Source of the DNA: Gemmatimonadota bacterium | GTDB taxonomy: Bacteria > Gemmatimonadota > Gemmatimonadetes > Gemmatimonadales > Gemmatimonadaceae | Direction of reading: 5' to 3' | DNA: 64,000 nt | NCBI GenBank assembly: GCA_027622655.1 | Contig: JAQBYI010000004.1 | Span: forward strand, 1-64,000 | Shown here: positions 3,493 through 49,634 of the stretch, one piece after another | How the letters are laid out: each line of letters begins with the position of its first letter | Position numbering within the stretch: the stretch's first letter is position 1 | Made by a program: the position numbers and the translations under genes | Notes under the pieces: model-generated | The model's input: only the letters and a program-made list of their open reading frames with translations | Database searches by the model: none | Told to the model about the DNA's origin: nothing

Positions 3493-4638
3493 TCATGGCG
3501 TCACCAGGCCGGTCGTAACGAGATCGTAGTAACGCCCAAGCTGTCCCGACTGCCGCAGCTCGACAAATCGGTCAACCAGTTGAACCGTCATCACGGCATG
3601 GTATCCGGCCACGGCGTGTGGATGGCCACCACCACACGTGAAACAACTCCTGATGATTGCGCTCTTCGCGTTGCGCGGGAATCGCTCGACACTCTTCGCG
3701 AACTCCGCGAAGCCGCCCTCACCGCGAAAGAGGTATTGCTCGACGTTCGACGTATACAGTGCCGAAAGCGTTTCGCCGTTCGCCTCCATCCATTGGGCGA
3801 CTCCGGCGAGCGCGTGCGTGCCCGCAAAGTTGCCAACCACTGGTATGACGAGATTCCTGGCCTCGAGGTCCTTCACGAACTGAAACGCGGATTCGGTCGC
3901 GAGAAACCCCGCCTGCCGTCCGTCGCGGTCGAGTCCGCTCGCGAGTTGGCGATAGTCGGGATAGTACGGCTGCGGTGCGCGGCCGAAAGTGTTGAAGCGG
4001 AGCGCGGGCCCGGCGGCGATGAAGGTGTTGTGGAAACGCGCAATGGTCTCGAAATCGGCCGACGACAGTTCGAGCGGAAGCCGCCGTACCTCGGCCATCA
4101 CCCGTTCCCGCGCCAGAGCCTCGGCCGCGGAGTCCCGCTTGGCCGCATCTATATAGAAGAGCAGGGAATCAATCGGTTTCGCCGCCCAACCCGCAGTATC
4201 TCCCGGCGCGGCGCGGCCGAAGAGCAACGCCAGATATTCGACGCGGTTCCTGGAAAGCGCGAACGTGGCCTTGAAGAGAAGGTGCTCGAGCAGGTTGTCA
4301 CGTCGCACGTCCACAATGAACGCTGCATGTGGCCGCACGGCCGCGATGTACGAAAAGTTCTGGTCCGGGCCGACACCGACGTACACACCACCGGTTGTCC
4401 CGATGTTTCGGAGCGTTGTCACGGGGTGCAGATACGAGTCTTCGTTCGAAATCAGGTTGTCGGTGTCGAAATACCCGCTCGGCTCCGACAATCGCGTGAC
4501 CAGTGCGGCGAACGCGGAGTCGGTGAGCGCGGCGGGCGCCTGCGTCGTGGCGCGTTGCGGCGCACAGGCCAGCAGAGCGGCCGCGAGGATCGCTGTATTG
4601 GCTCTCAGGAGGGGACGGTTGGCGCTTGCCATCGGCAA
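3493..4638 (-). CDS. LIC_10091-like lipoprotein
   Basis: A 381-aa protein with a signal peptide and lipobox-like end (AAALLACAP, residues 18-26). The central part contains GGVYVGVGPDQNFSYIAAV followed by a DVRRDN segment. This resembles the SAM-binding-like glycine loop and acidic strand end of the LIC_10091 family, which adopts a methyltransferase-like fold. A FTCGGGH motif lies near the C-terminus. No enzymatic activity is established for the family as far as I know. It follows the divergent propeller-amidohydrolase and precedes the EamA transporter on the same strand by 19 bases. The assignment rests on motif resemblance only. Confidence 0.55.
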   Translation of the reverse strand: MPMASANRPLLRANTAILAAALLACAPQRATTQAPAALTDSAFAALVTRLSEPSGYFDTDNLISNEDSYLHPVTTLRNIGTTGGVYVGVGPDQNFSYIAAVRPHAAFIVDVRRDNLLEHLLFKATFALSRNRVEYLALLFGRAAPGDTAGWAAKPIDSLLFYIDAAKRDSAAEALARERVMAEVRRLPLELSSADFETIARFHNTFIAAGPALRFNTFGRAPQPYYPDYRQLASGLDRDGRQAGFLATESAFQFVKDLEARNLVIPVVGNFAGTHALAGVAQWMEANGETLSALYTSNVEQYLFRGEGGFAEFAKSVERFPRNAKSAIIRSCFTCGGGHPHAVAGYHAVMTVQLVDRFVELRQSGQLGRYYDLVTTGLVTP

Positions 4639-43692: not shown

Positions 43693-46600
43693 CTACGGAA
43701 TCGCCCCCGCCGCCCCGGCACGACGCGGATCGGCACCGGCGGTCACCTTCTTGCCGTCAATCGAAACAGCCGCCCCGTAGCCCTCGCGGAGTTCACCCAT
43801 GAGTGAGACGAACGTGAAGTCGTAGCCCATCTCACGCATCCGTTTCAGCACGTCGGGCGAGAAACCGTCCTCGATCTGCACCATCACGGGCCCCGGTGTT
43901 GCGCCGCGGCCTCCCCGACCGACCGCGCCGCGACCTCCTGCGCCGCGACCTCCGCGTCCACTTCCAGCGTTACCCGCTCTGCCAGTTGGGAGAGGTGGTG
44001 GTTCCGTTGGTACGAATGCGCCACCGCCGCCACCGCCGCCGCCGGGAAGGAAGCGCGGAAGTTCGAGCGCCTGTTGCGGCGAGAGCCCGTAGTCCATCAG
44101 GCCGAGCAGAATCTGGTACACGCCGGACGTGATCCAGGCGTTGCCGGCAGCGCCAACCGCGAAAACGGGCTTGCCGGCGCGCATGACGACAGTCGGCGAG
44201 ATCGTGCTGCCGTGACGCGCAAACGGCAGTCGCGATCCGTACGAGGTCGGATTCGTTCCGTACGACGTGAGTTTGTCGTTGGAAATGAATCCAAGCCCCG
44301 GCGATACGTAGAACGTTCCGCCCCAAGTGCCCAAAGTCTGTGTCACCGAGACGGCGTTGCCCTCATTGTCAGCAACGACGAACGCCGTGGTTCCGCTGGC
44401 GTGGCAGTACGTGACTTCGGCGGCGTGCTCAGCACCGCAGCCGCGTTCTTCCATCGCGTCCGCGATTTGCTCGAAGTGCGGCTGCACGCTCGACCCAAGA
44501 GCGTCATCCGCCGGCTTGCTGCATCCGAGCGAATCGGCAGGCAGTTCCGCCGTGCGGACTGCGCGATCGGGCGAGAAGCAGCTCCAGCGGATTCGCGCCG
44601 TGTCCTTGCTCGTCTGCGGCACGATGTTGACTGGCCAAAACGCTGGATCAGCAACTTGTCCGCGCCGCACAAGCGACCACGACGCCAGCGTAGCGTGCAA
44701 GGTGGCTGCGTTTTCGGTGTAGATCTTCTGCGAGCCGGCCAGTTCGAGGAGATTGAACTTGCCGACGAGATCGGCGCCGCCGGAAACGGGCGGCGCGCTC
44801 GAATAGAGCGTGAAGCCACGGTACGTTCCGCTTACCGGTTCACGATCGACCGCGAAATAGCGATTGAGGTCGCTCACCTTCATCGCGTTGCCCTTTGCGT
44901 GCAGATCGTTGGCATACCGTTCGGCGACAACGCCGCGATAAAATCCATCCGCGCCACGCTCGGCGACCTGCTCGAGCGTCCACGCGAGGTCGGGGTTCTT
45001 CACAGTATCGCCGGCGACAACGGGATTGCCGTTTCGGAAGAACAGCTTCGTGCTACTCTCGTACTTGGCGAAGTGTTCGCGTTCGGTCTGGAGAGTGGTA
45101 GCGAGTCCGTCGCTTACTTCGTAGCCGTCGCGAGCCGCGCGAATTGCCGGCGCGACGATGTCCTTCCACGACACTTTGCCTGATCCGTACTGTTTGAACG
45201 CGCTGTACATCCCCGCGATCGTACCCGGCACATTGGTGAGTACCGGGCCATCGCTCGGGTAGCTTCCGTCGACGAGAAGCGACGTGTTGTCGAGTCCGGC
45301 GTCTTCAGGCACGCGCGTCATGAACTCGATGAGCTTCGGCGTTCCAACCTTCGCGAGTGCAATGACCATCTGGCCGTAGCCGCCCGGGCCGCTCGCGTCG
45401 GGCTCAACCACGCCGAGCGCGAAACTCACCGCTGCGGCCGCATCAACGACATTTCCGCCCGCGGCCAGAATCTCCAGGCCGGCGGCGGTCGCAACCGGGT
45501 GCGCACTGGAAACTGCCGCGCGACCCGTGGCCGGTTGGCGCAGCAACGGCCGTTCCCGATTCATCCGGAACATCACTCGCTGGAGTTCTTCGTCGTCCTT
45601 CGCCGTGGCCGCCTGCGCGCGGTACTTCTCGCGCAATGCTGTCCACTGCTTGAGCCGGTCCGACGCGTCTGCGCCGGAGTAGTAGAGCTTCGCCGACCGC
45701 TCCCACACCTGTTCGAACACGGCGGTGTTCCGACCCGCTGCGGGGCGCGAGGCATCGATCGCCGTTTCACGAAGGCCAACATCGGGCGCCGTCGGTGCGG
45801 TCACGAGCATCAGCGGGAAGCGCTTGCCGAATGGTTCGCGCACGGCGCGGTCGCCGAGGCGGGCCGGGTCTCCGTTGTATCCGGGCTGGCTGTCGTCCAC
45901 TTCGACGATGGCGAGCGTCTGTCCGTCCGGCGACCAGGCGATCTCGCCGCGCTGTGCGGTCGCGTAGTTCGTGTACATCGCATTGGCAGCCACGACGAAC
46001 GTGCCCGCGCGTTCGCCATTTCCGGCGCTCGCGGAAAAGGCGATCCGCGATCCGTCTGGCGCCCACGCGAGCGACTCGGGCATCCGCGCTGCGACGGCCA
46101 CGCCGTCACGCTCGCTTGCAATGTTGCGAATCAGCAGACGGCGGCCGGTCTCGAAGACCTGGATGTAGGCGATACTCGATCCGTCGGGCGAGTATTCCGG
46201 CGCGAGTTCGGACTCTTCCCGGTTCGTCAGCCGACGCTCGCTGCCGCTTGCGTCGCGAATCCAGATGCGCGCCGAGCCACCGAATCCTCGCACGAAGGCA
46301 ACGCTCCCGTTCGGTTCCACGGATGGCGCGCTGTCGTCGAATCGCGACACCGTGATCCGTTGCGGGTGATCGTTCAGGCCGTCTGCGCTGATCGCCATCC
46401 GCCAGATGGAGAACGAGCCGCCCTCGTTGGACGAGTAATAGATGTGCGAACCGTCCCGCGACCATTCAGGGTCGCGGTCCCACGCGGCTCCGCTCGTGAT
46501 CTGAACCCACTTTTTGCTCGCCGCCTGCTGAACGAAGAGGTCGCCGTCAATCGACACGGCCAGCCGACCGTCCGGTGCATAGGCTGGCGCGCGTGCGCCA

Positions 46601-46713
46601 CGAAGTGGTTCGGCGGCCTGTTGTTGGGCCGGCGGGGCGGCGTGCAACAGCACTGCAGCGATTAGAGCGAAGGACACGTGAGCAACTCCGGCGAATGGCA
46701 ATTGTTCAAACAT
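43693..46713 (-). CDS. Propeller-gamma-glutamyltransferase fusion
   Basis: About 1006 aa from ATG 46713, which starts a signal peptide (FALIAAVLLHAAPP); the longer frame to 46800 is unlikely. Residues about 35-330 hold PD40/TolB repeats (PAYAPDGRLAV, PEWSRDGSHIYY, PEYSPDGSSIAYI). From about 420 a full gamma-glutamyltransferase follows: AAGGNVVDAAAAVSFALGV is the large-subunit start, and SGTTAFVVADNEGNAVSVTQT has the self-cleaving catalytic threonine, then SRLPFARHGSTISPT. A Gly/Arg-rich insert lies near the end. Predicted periplasmic, hydrolysing gamma-glutamyl bonds such as in glutathione. A propeller on a GGT is unusual. Confidence 0.85.
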   Translation of the reverse strand: MFEQLPFAGVAHVSFALIAAVLLHAAPPAQQQAAEPLRGARAPAYAPDGRLAVSIDGDLFVQQAASKKWVQITSGAAWDRDPEWSRDGSHIYYSSNEGGSFSIWRMAISADGLNDHPQRITVSRFDDSAPSVEPNGSVAFVRGFGGSARIWIRDASGSERRLTNREESELAPEYSPDGSSIAYIQVFETGRRLLIRNIASERDGVAVAARMPESLAWAPDGSRIAFSASAGNGERAGTFVVAANAMYTNYATAQRGEIAWSPDGQTLAIVEVDDSQPGYNGDPARLGDRAVREPFGKRFPLMLVTAPTAPDVGLRETAIDASRPAAGRNTAVFEQVWERSAKLYYSGADASDRLKQWTALREKYRAQAATAKDDEELQRVMFRMNRERPLLRQPATGRAAVSSAHPVATAAGLEILAAGGNVVDAAAAVSFALGVVEPDASGPGGYGQMVIALAKVGTPKLIEFMTRVPEDAGLDNTSLLVDGSYPSDGPVLTNVPGTIAGMYSAFKQYGSGKVSWKDIVAPAIRAARDGYEVSDGLATTLQTEREHFAKYESSTKLFFRNGNPVVAGDTVKNPDLAWTLEQVAERGADGFYRGVVAERYANDLHAKGNAMKVSDLNRYFAVDREPVSGTYRGFTLYSSAPPVSGGADLVGKFNLLELAGSQKIYTENAATLHATLASWSLVRRGQVADPAFWPVNIVPQTSKDTARIRWSCFSPDRAVRTAELPADSLGCSKPADDALGSSVQPHFEQIADAMEERGCGAEHAAEVTYCHASGTTAFVVADNEGNAVSVTQTLGTWGGTFYVSPGLGFISNDKLTSYGTNPTSYGSRLPFARHGSTISPTVVMRAGKPVFAVGAAGNAWITSGVYQILLGLMDYGLSPQQALELPRFLPGGGGGGGGAFVPTEPPPLPTGRAGNAGSGRGGRGAGGRGAVGRGGRGATPGPVMVQIEDGFSPDVLKRMREMGYDFTFVSLMGELREGYGAAVSIDGKKVTAGADPRRAGAAGAIP

Positions 46714-46826
46714 ATCCCGGCACCACGGCTGGGCGCACGAGTCGGCGAGGGCGCCGCGCCACAGGTATCGCAGTGAGCGCTGCTTCCACTGGCGGCGCAC
46801 TTGCCTGCCGATGCATCATCAGGCCT

Positions 46827-47387
46827 ATGACGTGGATCAAGACGATCGACCCAATGACCGAAGGGCCCGTTCGCGAGGCAACGCTCGCACAGGCCAAGCT
46901 TTACCCGCGCGAGTACGCCACGACGACCAATCCGTCACTCCGCCCTGAGGAGAAGATCGGGGCGAGCCATTCGCTAATTCCCGACGTGATGCGTCACGCG
47001 TTCTCGACGTTCGGCGCAGCGATGTCGCCGGATCTTCCGCTCGAGCGCCGCCATCACGAGATGATTGCGACGGTGGTCTCGGTGATCAATCGGTGTCGGT
47101 ATTGAATTGACGCTCACGCAGAGTTTCTGCGTCGCGTGACGAATGATGAAGCTCTGGTCTCAGCGCTGCTCGAGGACTGGCAGACCGCGCCGGTGGACGC
47201 CAAAGAGATGGCGATGCTGGAATACGCGGTGATGATCACCGAGGATGCCGAGCAGATCGGTCCGGAAACACTCGACGGGCTTCGCGCACACGGCTACGAC
47301 GACACGGCAATCCTGCAGATGGCCGCCATCGCTTCGTGGTTCAACTACATCAATCGAATGGCGGATGCTCTTGGAGTAGGGCGGTAG
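46827..47387 (+). CDS. AhpD-like peroxidase-related selenoprotein (in-frame TGA = Sec)
   Basis: A 186-residue protein if TGA at 47103-47105 is read through. The first 92 residues (MTWIKTID, then RHHEMIATVVSVINRCRY) and the last 93 (IDAHAEFLRRVTNDEAL to YINRMADALGV) both match the peroxidase-related carboxymuconolactone-decarboxylase/AhpD family and are in the same frame. The TGA falls exactly at the second cysteine of the CxxC redox motif, giving CRYU, with the family histidine four residues on (UIDAH). No other lesion is seen. A hairpin at 47110-47137 is placed as a bacterial SECIS. CxxU forms of AhpD-like proteins are known. A thiol peroxidase or hydroperoxide-detoxifying role is inferred. 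The alternative is a Cys-to-stop mutation. Divergent from the GGT fusion. Confidence 0.8.
47110..47137 (+). promoter_or_regulatory. Candidate bacterial SECIS element
   Basis: Starts five bases after the TGA. Lower stem ACGC (47110-47113) with GCGT (47134-47137), a TC/C internal loop, then a perfect 7-bp upper stem ACGCAGA/TCTGCGT capped by GTT (47123-47125). The loop G lies 17 bases after the TGA, close to the spacing in E. coli fdhF. The stem is inside coding sequence, as required for bacterial Sec insertion. Confidence 0.7.
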
Positions 47388-47571: not shown

Positions 47572-49185
47572 TCAGCGCACTACCTCGATGCGAGAAATCA
47601 CGTCGCCCTCGAAGATCCCGTCCACGACGTCGATTCCGTCACTGATCTCCGCAAAAACCGTATAGTCGCGATTGAGCCGCAGGTTGTCGCGCACGTTCAC
47701 GAACCACTGTGCGTCGCCCGTGTCGTGTTCGCCCGTGCTGAGTCCCACCGTGCCGCGCGCGTGAGGAACCGTGCCGAGTTCGTCGCGAAAGAAACGGGGA
47801 TGCCCGCGAAACTCATTGGCTCCCGGCGCTCCGCCCTGGATCACGAAGTCCGCTTCCACGCGGTGCCACTGATTGCCGTCGTACCAACCCGAGCGGGCGA
47901 GCGCGAGTACGCGCGCGGCCATCACCGGGGCCACGTCACCGCGGAGGCGCACGGTGAACGAACCGCCGCCGCTCGAATCGGCCATCACCACACGGAGCCG
48001 CACCTCGGCGCCAAGTGCGAGCCGCGCGGCATTCGGTGGCAGCTCGATCGGTATTGGCACGCAGGTGTGAGTTGCGTTCGCGACGCCGATCGAGATTCCG
48101 ATTGCCGAGTACGCCTCCGCGATTCGGCAGTCGTAGTCGGTTGCGAGCGGGGCGATGCGCGGCCAGTCGGCCTGCTTTGCGAATTCCGCGACCCTCGTGG
48201 CAACGGCGGCCCGAATGCGTCGCGATGTTTCGCTGGAGTCGCGCTGCAACCGCATCGCCGCGGCGATACTTGCCGTGAGAACGTCAGTACCGCGCGGTGA
48301 CTCCTTCAAAGCCGTCGCGGCAGCGCGAACAACTTGCCCTCCACGCGCCGACATCGCCGCGATGAACACGTCGTCCGCCGAGTGACCCGCAACTCGGGCC
48401 AGTCCGCCGATCGCGGTTTCCCTGACGTTGTCGTCTCCGTCCGCGGCCAGCCGGCGCAACACCGTCGTGTCGTTCAACGTGGCCGCCGCGCGCGCGGCGT
48501 AGATGCGCACCTCTGGAATCCTGCTCGCCGTGAATCGAGGGAGCGCTGTCCGTGCGTCGGCCGGAGCGATCCGGGTCAACGCAGTGAGTCCGTGCGCTGC
48601 GCCATGCCACGAGACGCCACCACTCGTTCTCGCGCTGGTCGTTGGTACGACGCGAACCCACTCGCGAAGAATCCCGGCGATCGCGTTGTCGTTGGCGCAC
48701 GCTGAGGTCACAAGATCGGCGCCGCGCAGGCGCACCTGCCACGCGTCGTCGTTCAACGCGCCGAGCAGTATGGCGCAGTCGGAGTTGGTACGTCCGAGCG
48801 CGCGATAGCGGAGTCGCCACGCCGGCTCTTCACCGAACGTCGGTGGGGCAGGGAGCGCGGGGAGCGAATCACGCAGCGCAAAAAGCGGATCGCGGGATCG
48901 GCCCATTCCGCGCTGGGCGATGACGCGGATTCGAGCGTCGCTATGGCGCAGCCCATCTACGTACGTGGCAAGCGTGGTGTCTCGATGGTCCTCGGCGAGC
49001 AGCAGCCGTTCAACGAGTTGCGCGTCGGCGCGCGAAAGCGCGGCACCCTGCGCACTGAGCGGCGCAGCGGTCGCAGCGGTCGCAGCGGTCGCAGCGGTCG
49101 CAGCGGTCGCAGCGGTCGCAGCGGTCGCAGCGGTCGCAACCGCGATGGCGAGTCCGACGGCAATCGTATGTACGTGCACAGTCAT
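47572..49185 (-). CDS. Secreted HEAT-repeat cyclophilin (PPIase)
   Basis: About 537 aa from ATG 49185, which overlaps the lrp stop by four bases (ATGA). A signal peptide is lengthened by a (TAA)n peptide repeat from a 9-base tandem repeat. Residues about 60-370 are HEAT-like helical repeats (AWQVRLRGADLV, NVRETAIGGLARVAG). The last 150 or so form a cyclophilin peptidyl-prolyl isomerase: FVIQGGAPGANEFRG and HDTGDAQWFVN are its signature blocks, with DYTVFAEISDG. It likely folds exported proteins in the periplasm. Co-translation with an Lrp regulator is unusual. Confidence 0.85.
   Translation of the reverse strand: MTVHVHTIAVGLAIAVATAATAATAATAATAATAATAATAAPLSAQGAALSRADAQLVERLLLAEDHRDTTLATYVDGLRHSDARIRVIAQRGMGRSRDPLFALRDSLPALPAPPTFGEEPAWRLRYRALGRTNSDCAILLGALNDDAWQVRLRGADLVTSACANDNAIAGILREWVRVVPTTSARTSGGVSWHGAAHGLTALTRIAPADARTALPRFTASRIPEVRIYAARAAATLNDTTVLRRLAADGDDNVRETAIGGLARVAGHSADDVFIAAMSARGGQVVRAAATALKESPRGTDVLTASIAAAMRLQRDSSETSRRIRAAVATRVAEFAKQADWPRIAPLATDYDCRIAEAYSAIGISIGVANATHTCVPIPIELPPNAARLALGAEVRLRVVMADSSGGGSFTVRLRGDVAPVMAARVLALARSGWYDGNQWHRVEADFVIQGGAPGANEFRGHPRFFRDELGTVPHARGTVGLSTGEHDTGDAQWFVNVRDNLRLNRDYTVFAEISDGIDVVDGIFEGDVISRIEVVR
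49063..49134. repeat. Eight perfect 9-bp tandem repeats in a signal peptide
   Basis: Eight head-to-tail copies of CGCAGCGGT. On the minus strand they encode repeated Ala-Thr-Ala inside the hydrophobic core of the cyclophilin signal peptide. The unit is a multiple of three, so slippage changes length but not frame. Confidence 0.95.
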
Positions 49186-49634
49186 CCCCTCACGTGTTCG
49201 AAGATCAGCCACGTTTCGATGTGCCCCACTTCCGGGCGGGCAATGAAGTGATCGAGCGCCAGGTCGCGGAGATGATCTGTGTCGCGCGCCATCACGTGGA
49301 CGAGAAAATCGTTCTCACCTGCGAGGTGATGTACCGCCTTCACCTCACCGAGCGCCAGTACGCCGGCGCGAAAAGCGTCGTACTGCTCGCGTGAGTGCCG
49401 CTGCAGTCGCACGGCAATCATCGCTTCAAGTGTGAACCCCAACGCGGCCGGATTGATCTCGGCGTGGAAGCCGCGAATCGCGCCCGATTCCGTGAGTTTG
49501 CGCACGCGTTCATGGCAGCTCGACGGCGCGAGCCCGACCGTCGCGGCGAGCTCCTTGTTGCTCAGCCGACCATTGTTCTGCAGAGCGGACAGAATCTTAT
49601 GATCTGTTCGGTCAATGTCCTGAAATGGCACCAC
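49182..49634 (-). CDS. Lrp/AsnC-family regulator
   Basis: A 150-aa regulator. DIDRTDHKILSALQNNGRLSNKELAATVG with SSCHERVRKLTESGAI is the classic Lrp helix-turn-helix, followed by the RAM/ACT-like domain (GFTLEAMIAVRL to HHLAGENDFLVHV). GTG at 49634 or the next GTG codon could start it. It is divergent from a Cys/Met-metabolism PLP enzyme, the usual target arrangement, so it probably responds to an amino acid and controls that gene. It overlaps the cyclophilin gene by ATGA. Confidence 0.9.
   Translation of the reverse strand: MVPFQDIDRTDHKILSALQNNGRLSNKELAATVGLAPSSCHERVRKLTESGAIRGFHAEINPAALGFTLEAMIAVRLQRHSREQYDAFRAGVLALGEVKAVHHLAGENDFLVHVMARDTDHLRDLALDHFIARPEVGHIETWLIFEHVRG

Follow-up and report, generated by a model that had tools for sequence, protein, structure and literature searches.

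Gene structure and the in-frame TGA codon

The window analyzed here, a stretch of 64,000 nucleotides from a Gemmatimonadota bacterium, carries on its forward strand an AhpD-like gene with an in-frame TGA codon, at which ordinary ORF calling stops the gene:

46827..47387, + strand: predicted selenocysteine (Sec)-containing AhpD-like gene, 186 amino acids followed by a TAG stop, with TGA93 read as Sec
47103..47105, + strand: in-frame TGA, read as Sec93, the second position of C90-R-Y-U93 (from translation and orthologue comparison)

Translation of 46827-47387 (+) yields 186 residues with one internal stop, the TGA at residue 93. It is embedded in the motif CRY-TGA-IDAH, which as Sec would read C90-R-Y-U93-IDAH97, and is followed by 93 family-like residues and then TAG; no further defects were found in this ORF. 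The start, MTWI, is common to most of the 24 orthologues described below, and the frame is kept in all 24. Comparison of the window gene with its relatives gives pN/pS values of 0.27-0.50 after the TGA versus 0.31-0.50 before it, and as judged from these ratios purifying selection on the frame 3' of the TGA is much like that 5' of it. The original prediction had described a single TGA at the second Cys of a CxxC motif in an otherwise intact frame, which proved exact, and had rightly expected ordinary annotation to cut the gene there.

Both neighbors of the gene lie on the opposite strand; one encodes a gamma-glutamyltranspeptidase-like fusion, the other a cyclophilin/HEAT protein. The first is a 1035-aa ORF (43693-46800, -) that combines a PD40 beta-propeller-like N-terminus with a gamma-glutamyltranspeptidase domain, and may be either genuinely fused or misjoined. 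The second (47572-49212, -) has, in its N-terminal region, a tandem repeat of A-A-T residues, an in-frame simple-sequence repeat. A scan for promoters and terminators found nothing; at other AhpD-like loci recurrent ORF clusters occur in the neighborhood.

Conservation of the TGA codon across relatives

Searching the order by protein similarity recovered 24 orthologues (E<1e-60), every one interrupted exactly once, by TGA at this same position. Sampling across the phylum yielded 25 matches, each with one TGA. Degenerate peptide patterns, one of which fixes the residues (D/E/T)(S/A)HAEFLR and leaves the codons free, were run against 84,980 species genomes and produced 291 relatives. The best 80 of these 291 belong to four phyla (Gemmatimonadota, Acidobacteriota, Latescibacterota and KSB1); TGA occupies the same codon in 79 of them, a picture with which the protein-similarity search of the order agrees. 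The remaining one, from Latescibacterota (L110, match 4001-4564), has TGC for TGA together with an intact SECIS word (see below) and selA in its genome, and probably represents a recent Sec-to-Cys change. The orthologue is patchy within the genus of the window: counting the window's own genome, 5 of the 18 that were searched carry it. The relatives keep the TGA and the frame, and do not show the decay by random stops and frame loss that the original prediction had named as a refutation.

Stop-free homologues in the order number only three, of which those in genomes G079 and G081 have CxxC and that in G084 has SxxC. The TGA aligns with the second, conserved Cys of CxxC in the solved homologues 2pfx and 3c1l, an alignment that the original prediction had proposed, and in the Cys forms of G079 and G081.

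Family affinities, fold and predicted active site

The translated protein scores 106.8 bits against the TIGR01926 model (peroxidase-related enzyme; cut-off 81.8), which places it in that family, and it also matches the Pfam domain PF02627 (CMD). The solved Cys homologues matched by sequence are 2pfx, 3c1l, 2prr and 6k40, the last an alkyl hydroperoxide reductase of D. radiodurans which we take to be DR_1765, the AhpD-like protein whose deletion is discussed below. From a 15-row alignment with Cys replacing Sec, AlphaFold2 produced a model with a pLDDT of 80.7 and a pTM of 0.77, in which residues 1-60 are less certain and predicted helices 74-88 and 91-105 form the catalytic hairpin. The best Foldseek matches of this model are 2prr and 6k40 (probability 1.00, TM 0.73-0.80), in keeping with an all-helical AhpD-like fold; 2pfx and 3c1l are grouped with it as well, and the Bmp8 debrominase 6ohi is a further fold match. 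The CxxU motif is accompanied by an E/C/(Y,H)/C/H relay on the two-helix hairpin:

47058..47117, + strand: active-site stretch with five relay residues, invariant in the 15-sequence alignment
47058-47060, + strand: E78, relay residue
47094-47096, + strand: C90, relay residue and first position of CxxU
47100-47102, + strand: Y92, relay residue
47103-47105, + strand: U93, relay residue and second position of CxxU
47115-47117, + strand: H97, relay residue

The product would thus be an all-helical AhpD-fold protein with a C90-x-x-U93 pair, for which E78, Y92 and H97 would act as a proton relay. In the most likely scheme, drawn from the family, the U93 selenolate would be the attacking group, C90 would resolve U93 to form a selenenyl-sulfide, and this in turn would be reduced by a thiol or lipoamide donor. 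A selenol-based peroxidase or reductase appears to be the best-supported function of the predicted protein, because of the relay match and the CxxC-dependent phenotype of the D. radiodurans AhpD-like protein, the deletion of which causes sensitivity to H2O2 that is complemented only with the CxxC motif in place (PMC8945050). As to its main role, we lean towards direct peroxide reduction. There is a smaller yet appreciable chance that the same selenoprotein serves chiefly as an AhpD-fold thiol/selenol reductase of an oxidised or halogenated substrate, or as an electron adaptor to another peroxiredoxin: the M. tuberculosis AhpD is an adaptor for AhpC and the direct peroxidase activity of P. aeruginosa PA0269 is weak (PMC3141380), a debrominase (Bmp8) is found among the fold matches, and no peroxidase operon partner adjoins the window gene. 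Against this stand the D. radiodurans phenotype and the rank of 6k40 as second-best fold match, and direct peroxide reduction is retained as the favored main role.

A nearly invariant SECIS hairpin downstream of the TGA

The original prediction is extended by a hairpin (47116-47132) that begins 10 nt after the TGA and gives the selenocysteine reading its strongest support:

47115..47132, + strand: SECIS word CACGCAGAGTTTCTGCGT, almost invariant, spanning codons +4 to +9 counted from the TGA and encoding H A E F L R
47116..47122, + strand: SECIS 5' arm ACGCAGA, paired with 47126-47132; any given pair is retained by 86-88 of the 88 orthologues
47123..47125, + strand: SECIS apical loop GUU with a conserved G at 47123 (orthologue and paralogue comparison)
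47126..47132, + strand: SECIS 3' arm UCUGCGU (arm pairing)

Its position directly 3' of the UGA and its small apical loop containing a G agree with the published definition of SECIS features (PMC1088965). All 24 order-level orthologues use the same six codons, CAC GCA GAG TTT CTG CGT, at +4 to +9, while neighboring codons vary freely, and in the larger set of 88 distinct Sec orthologues the 18-mer is identical in 85; one of the other three changes an A-U pair to G-U and two lack the outermost pair only. The loop G is found in 88 of 88 orthologues and 15 of 16 paralogues. Among 77 amino-acid-conserved columns (89 distinct sequences) these codons have the six lowest synonymous entropies, with a mean of 0.04 bits versus 1.32, and they include the disfavored GCA and CGT (8.6% and 7.9% of family usage). 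The two arms and the GUU loop fold with -8.2 kcal/mol, and arm pairing stands at 98% versus 31-54% when the 3' arm is slid by 1-3 nt; the folding energy is not significant by itself (z of -0.33 and -1.33), and codon-resampled controls fold equally well in 13% of cases. Reading the sequence, we find that each third codon position pairs with a second codon position whose base the protein sequence dictates, with the exception of that of GAG, which is the apical-loop G. The DNA of the word is almost invariant because its wobble bases either pair with bases fixed by the amino acids or are the loop G itself.

Paralogues within the order that contain a TGA retain related hairpins: 16 with HH after Sec keep the register with G5-C15 replacing C5-G15, and A-U/G-U alternation is also seen. 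A further group of AhpD-like paralogues with a TGA has a third type of SECIS, GACCTC-N6-GAG(G/A)TC, which starts 18 nt after the TGA (order-level examples L049, L050, L052, L053 and L170). The genome of the window itself has a second TGA-containing AhpD-like gene (L065, G000:C37:35725-36129), which is 42% identical and bears a different SECIS word, CACGGAGCGGGTCTCCGT. The Rfam scan of the window gave no matches, the combined TGA and SECIS pattern was not found in viral contigs, and plasmids yielded only distant homologues, all below 60% identity. A copy of the word with one mismatch in genome G151 was dismissed as chance, as it sits in what we read from its translation as a helicase-like frame with no TGA-AhpD context.

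The identity of the word across four phyla might alternatively stem from a non-SECIS cause, for example an overlapping element or a recent spread by horizontal transfer, which we consider very improbable. The rest of the gene has diverged (56-73% protein identity, with dS mostly around 1), compensatory pairs occur in the paralogues, and of the 288 genomes searched in the order only the 24 with the orthologue contain the exact 18-mer, each of them once. Moreover, sequences in the protein tree cluster largely according to phylum, with 10 label changes against a shuffled mean of 31, and the conserved word is therefore old and not recently spread. Recent horizontal spread is rejected on the combined strength of the diverged genes, the phylum-wise tree and the compensatory pairs, and a SECIS element remains the preferred reading of the hairpin.

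The selenocysteine-decoding apparatus

The same genome encodes the complete set of bacterial Sec-decoding components, each above its curated cut-off, namely selA (contig C53, 528 bits), selB (contig C16, 328 bits with neighbours, a 637-aa ORF), selD (contig C101, 383 bits) and, as selC, a tRNA-Sec with anticodon TCA directly after selD. These are the four genes for which the original prediction had suggested a search, and they bear out its implication of a Sec-decoding member of Gemmatimonadota. Across the order selA was detected in 189 of 288 genomes searched, which suggests that Sec decoding is common in this part of the phylum; by the same token, the presence of selA alone is only mildly informative. 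It was found in 20 of the 24 orthologue genomes and in all 9 genomes with other relatives that were tested. In the four orthologue genomes in which selA was not found, the pattern varies: G017 has selB present, G057 has a selB-like match below the cut-off at a contig end, and G113 and G136, both fragmented and incomplete MAGs, gave neither selA nor selB. The genomes with the three stop-free homologues (G079, G081 and G084) have no selA match and no selB above the cut-off. These comparisons support a mechanism in which the hairpin immediately 3' of the UGA would recruit a SelB-Sec-tRNA complex that inserts Sec at position 93.

Read-through of UGA occurs in bacteria, and the codon might accordingly be read as Trp or Cys through code reassignment or general read-through. 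This we regard as very unlikely, given the tRNA-Sec(TCA), SelA, SelB and SelD of the genome, the hairpin tied to the TGA, and the location of the stop-free homologues in genomes without detected selA; reassignment is further rejected by the orthologue in G091, whose own terminal stop is TGA. Finally, a nonsense mutation or sequencing error in a CxxC gene (a pseudogene or artefact), as the ending of ORF calls at the TGA would suggest, has a negligible probability and is refuted by the comparative data, in view of a TGA shared by 24 separate genomes in the order and by 79 of the best 80 of 291 relatives, purifying selection on the intact frames beyond it, a fixed hairpin and the presence of all the Sec machinery. 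The selenocysteine reading of 47103-47105 put forward in the original prediction is upheld by the Sec genes of the genome and by the TGA and frame kept in relatives. We are highly confident that 46827-47387 encodes an AhpD-like (TIGR01926) selenoprotein in which U93 is inserted via the SECIS and which likely acts as a reductant of peroxide or an oxidised partner.

Evolutionary implications

The original prediction was correct that CxxU versions of AhpD-like proteins are documented, but it overstated the interest of the gene, which is a further TIGR01926 CxxU selenoprotein, a kind already in the literature; these proteins have been catalogued as selenoproteins (PMC13188914), AhpD-like CxxU selenoproteins were recorded earlier (PMC1088965, PMC2398784), and the peroxidase activity it proposed is predicted from the family. 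Less expected are the widespread Sec decoding in Gemmatimonadota and the nearly invariant SECIS shared across phyla; we have seen no description in the literature of the near-invariant word in the Gemmatimonadota/Acidobacteriota clade. No paper on Sec decoding in Gemmatimonadota was found among the open-access main texts searched, though one may exist outside them, and the phylum is not named in the main text of PMC5029168.

We think it reasonably likely that these genes define a nearly Sec-only AhpD-like clade common to soil Gemmatimonadota and Acidobacteriota, with a SECIS locked at the DNA level. If this is true, Gemmatimonadota would be an unrecognised, largely Sec-decoding lineage. As gene callers end at the TGA, a conserved antioxidant-type enzyme may be missed or split in many soil genomes. 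The joint protein and RNA constraints that fix every base of six codons also offer a clean test case for shared sequence.

Comparison with known systems

Two further AhpD-type families with (seleno)protein members, NF041238 (AhpD_rel_CFYUT) and NF053654 (YciW-related), match the window protein weakly, at 57.8 bits versus a cut-off of 175 and 36.3 versus 310, respectively, and it belongs to neither. A relay of the form E-x11-C-x-(Y/H)-C-x3-H is shared by P. aeruginosa PA0269 and M. tuberculosis AhpD (PMC3141380). In PA0269 (2ijc/2o4d) it comprises E36-C48-Y50-C51-H55, with the spacing of the window protein, in an alignment that covers 138 columns only. In the M. tuberculosis AhpD (1gu9) it comprises E118-C130-H132-C133-H137, with His for Tyr and the same spacing, although the topology is different and the fold match weak (E 0.11). 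The solved proteins 6k40, 2pfx, 2prr, 3c1l and 2oyo resemble the window protein in catalytic and C-terminal sequence and in fold (TM about 0.70-0.80), but have Cys instead of its Sec and are 22-30% identical to it in fold alignments. The AhpD-like selenoproteins of the Sargasso Sea and GOS collections, compared here by description, fall under the same NCBIfam model (TIGR01926), with Sec at the second CxxC position and likewise a hairpin 3' of the UGA whose loop contains a G, whereas the present clade is that of Gemmatimonadota and Acidobacteriota.
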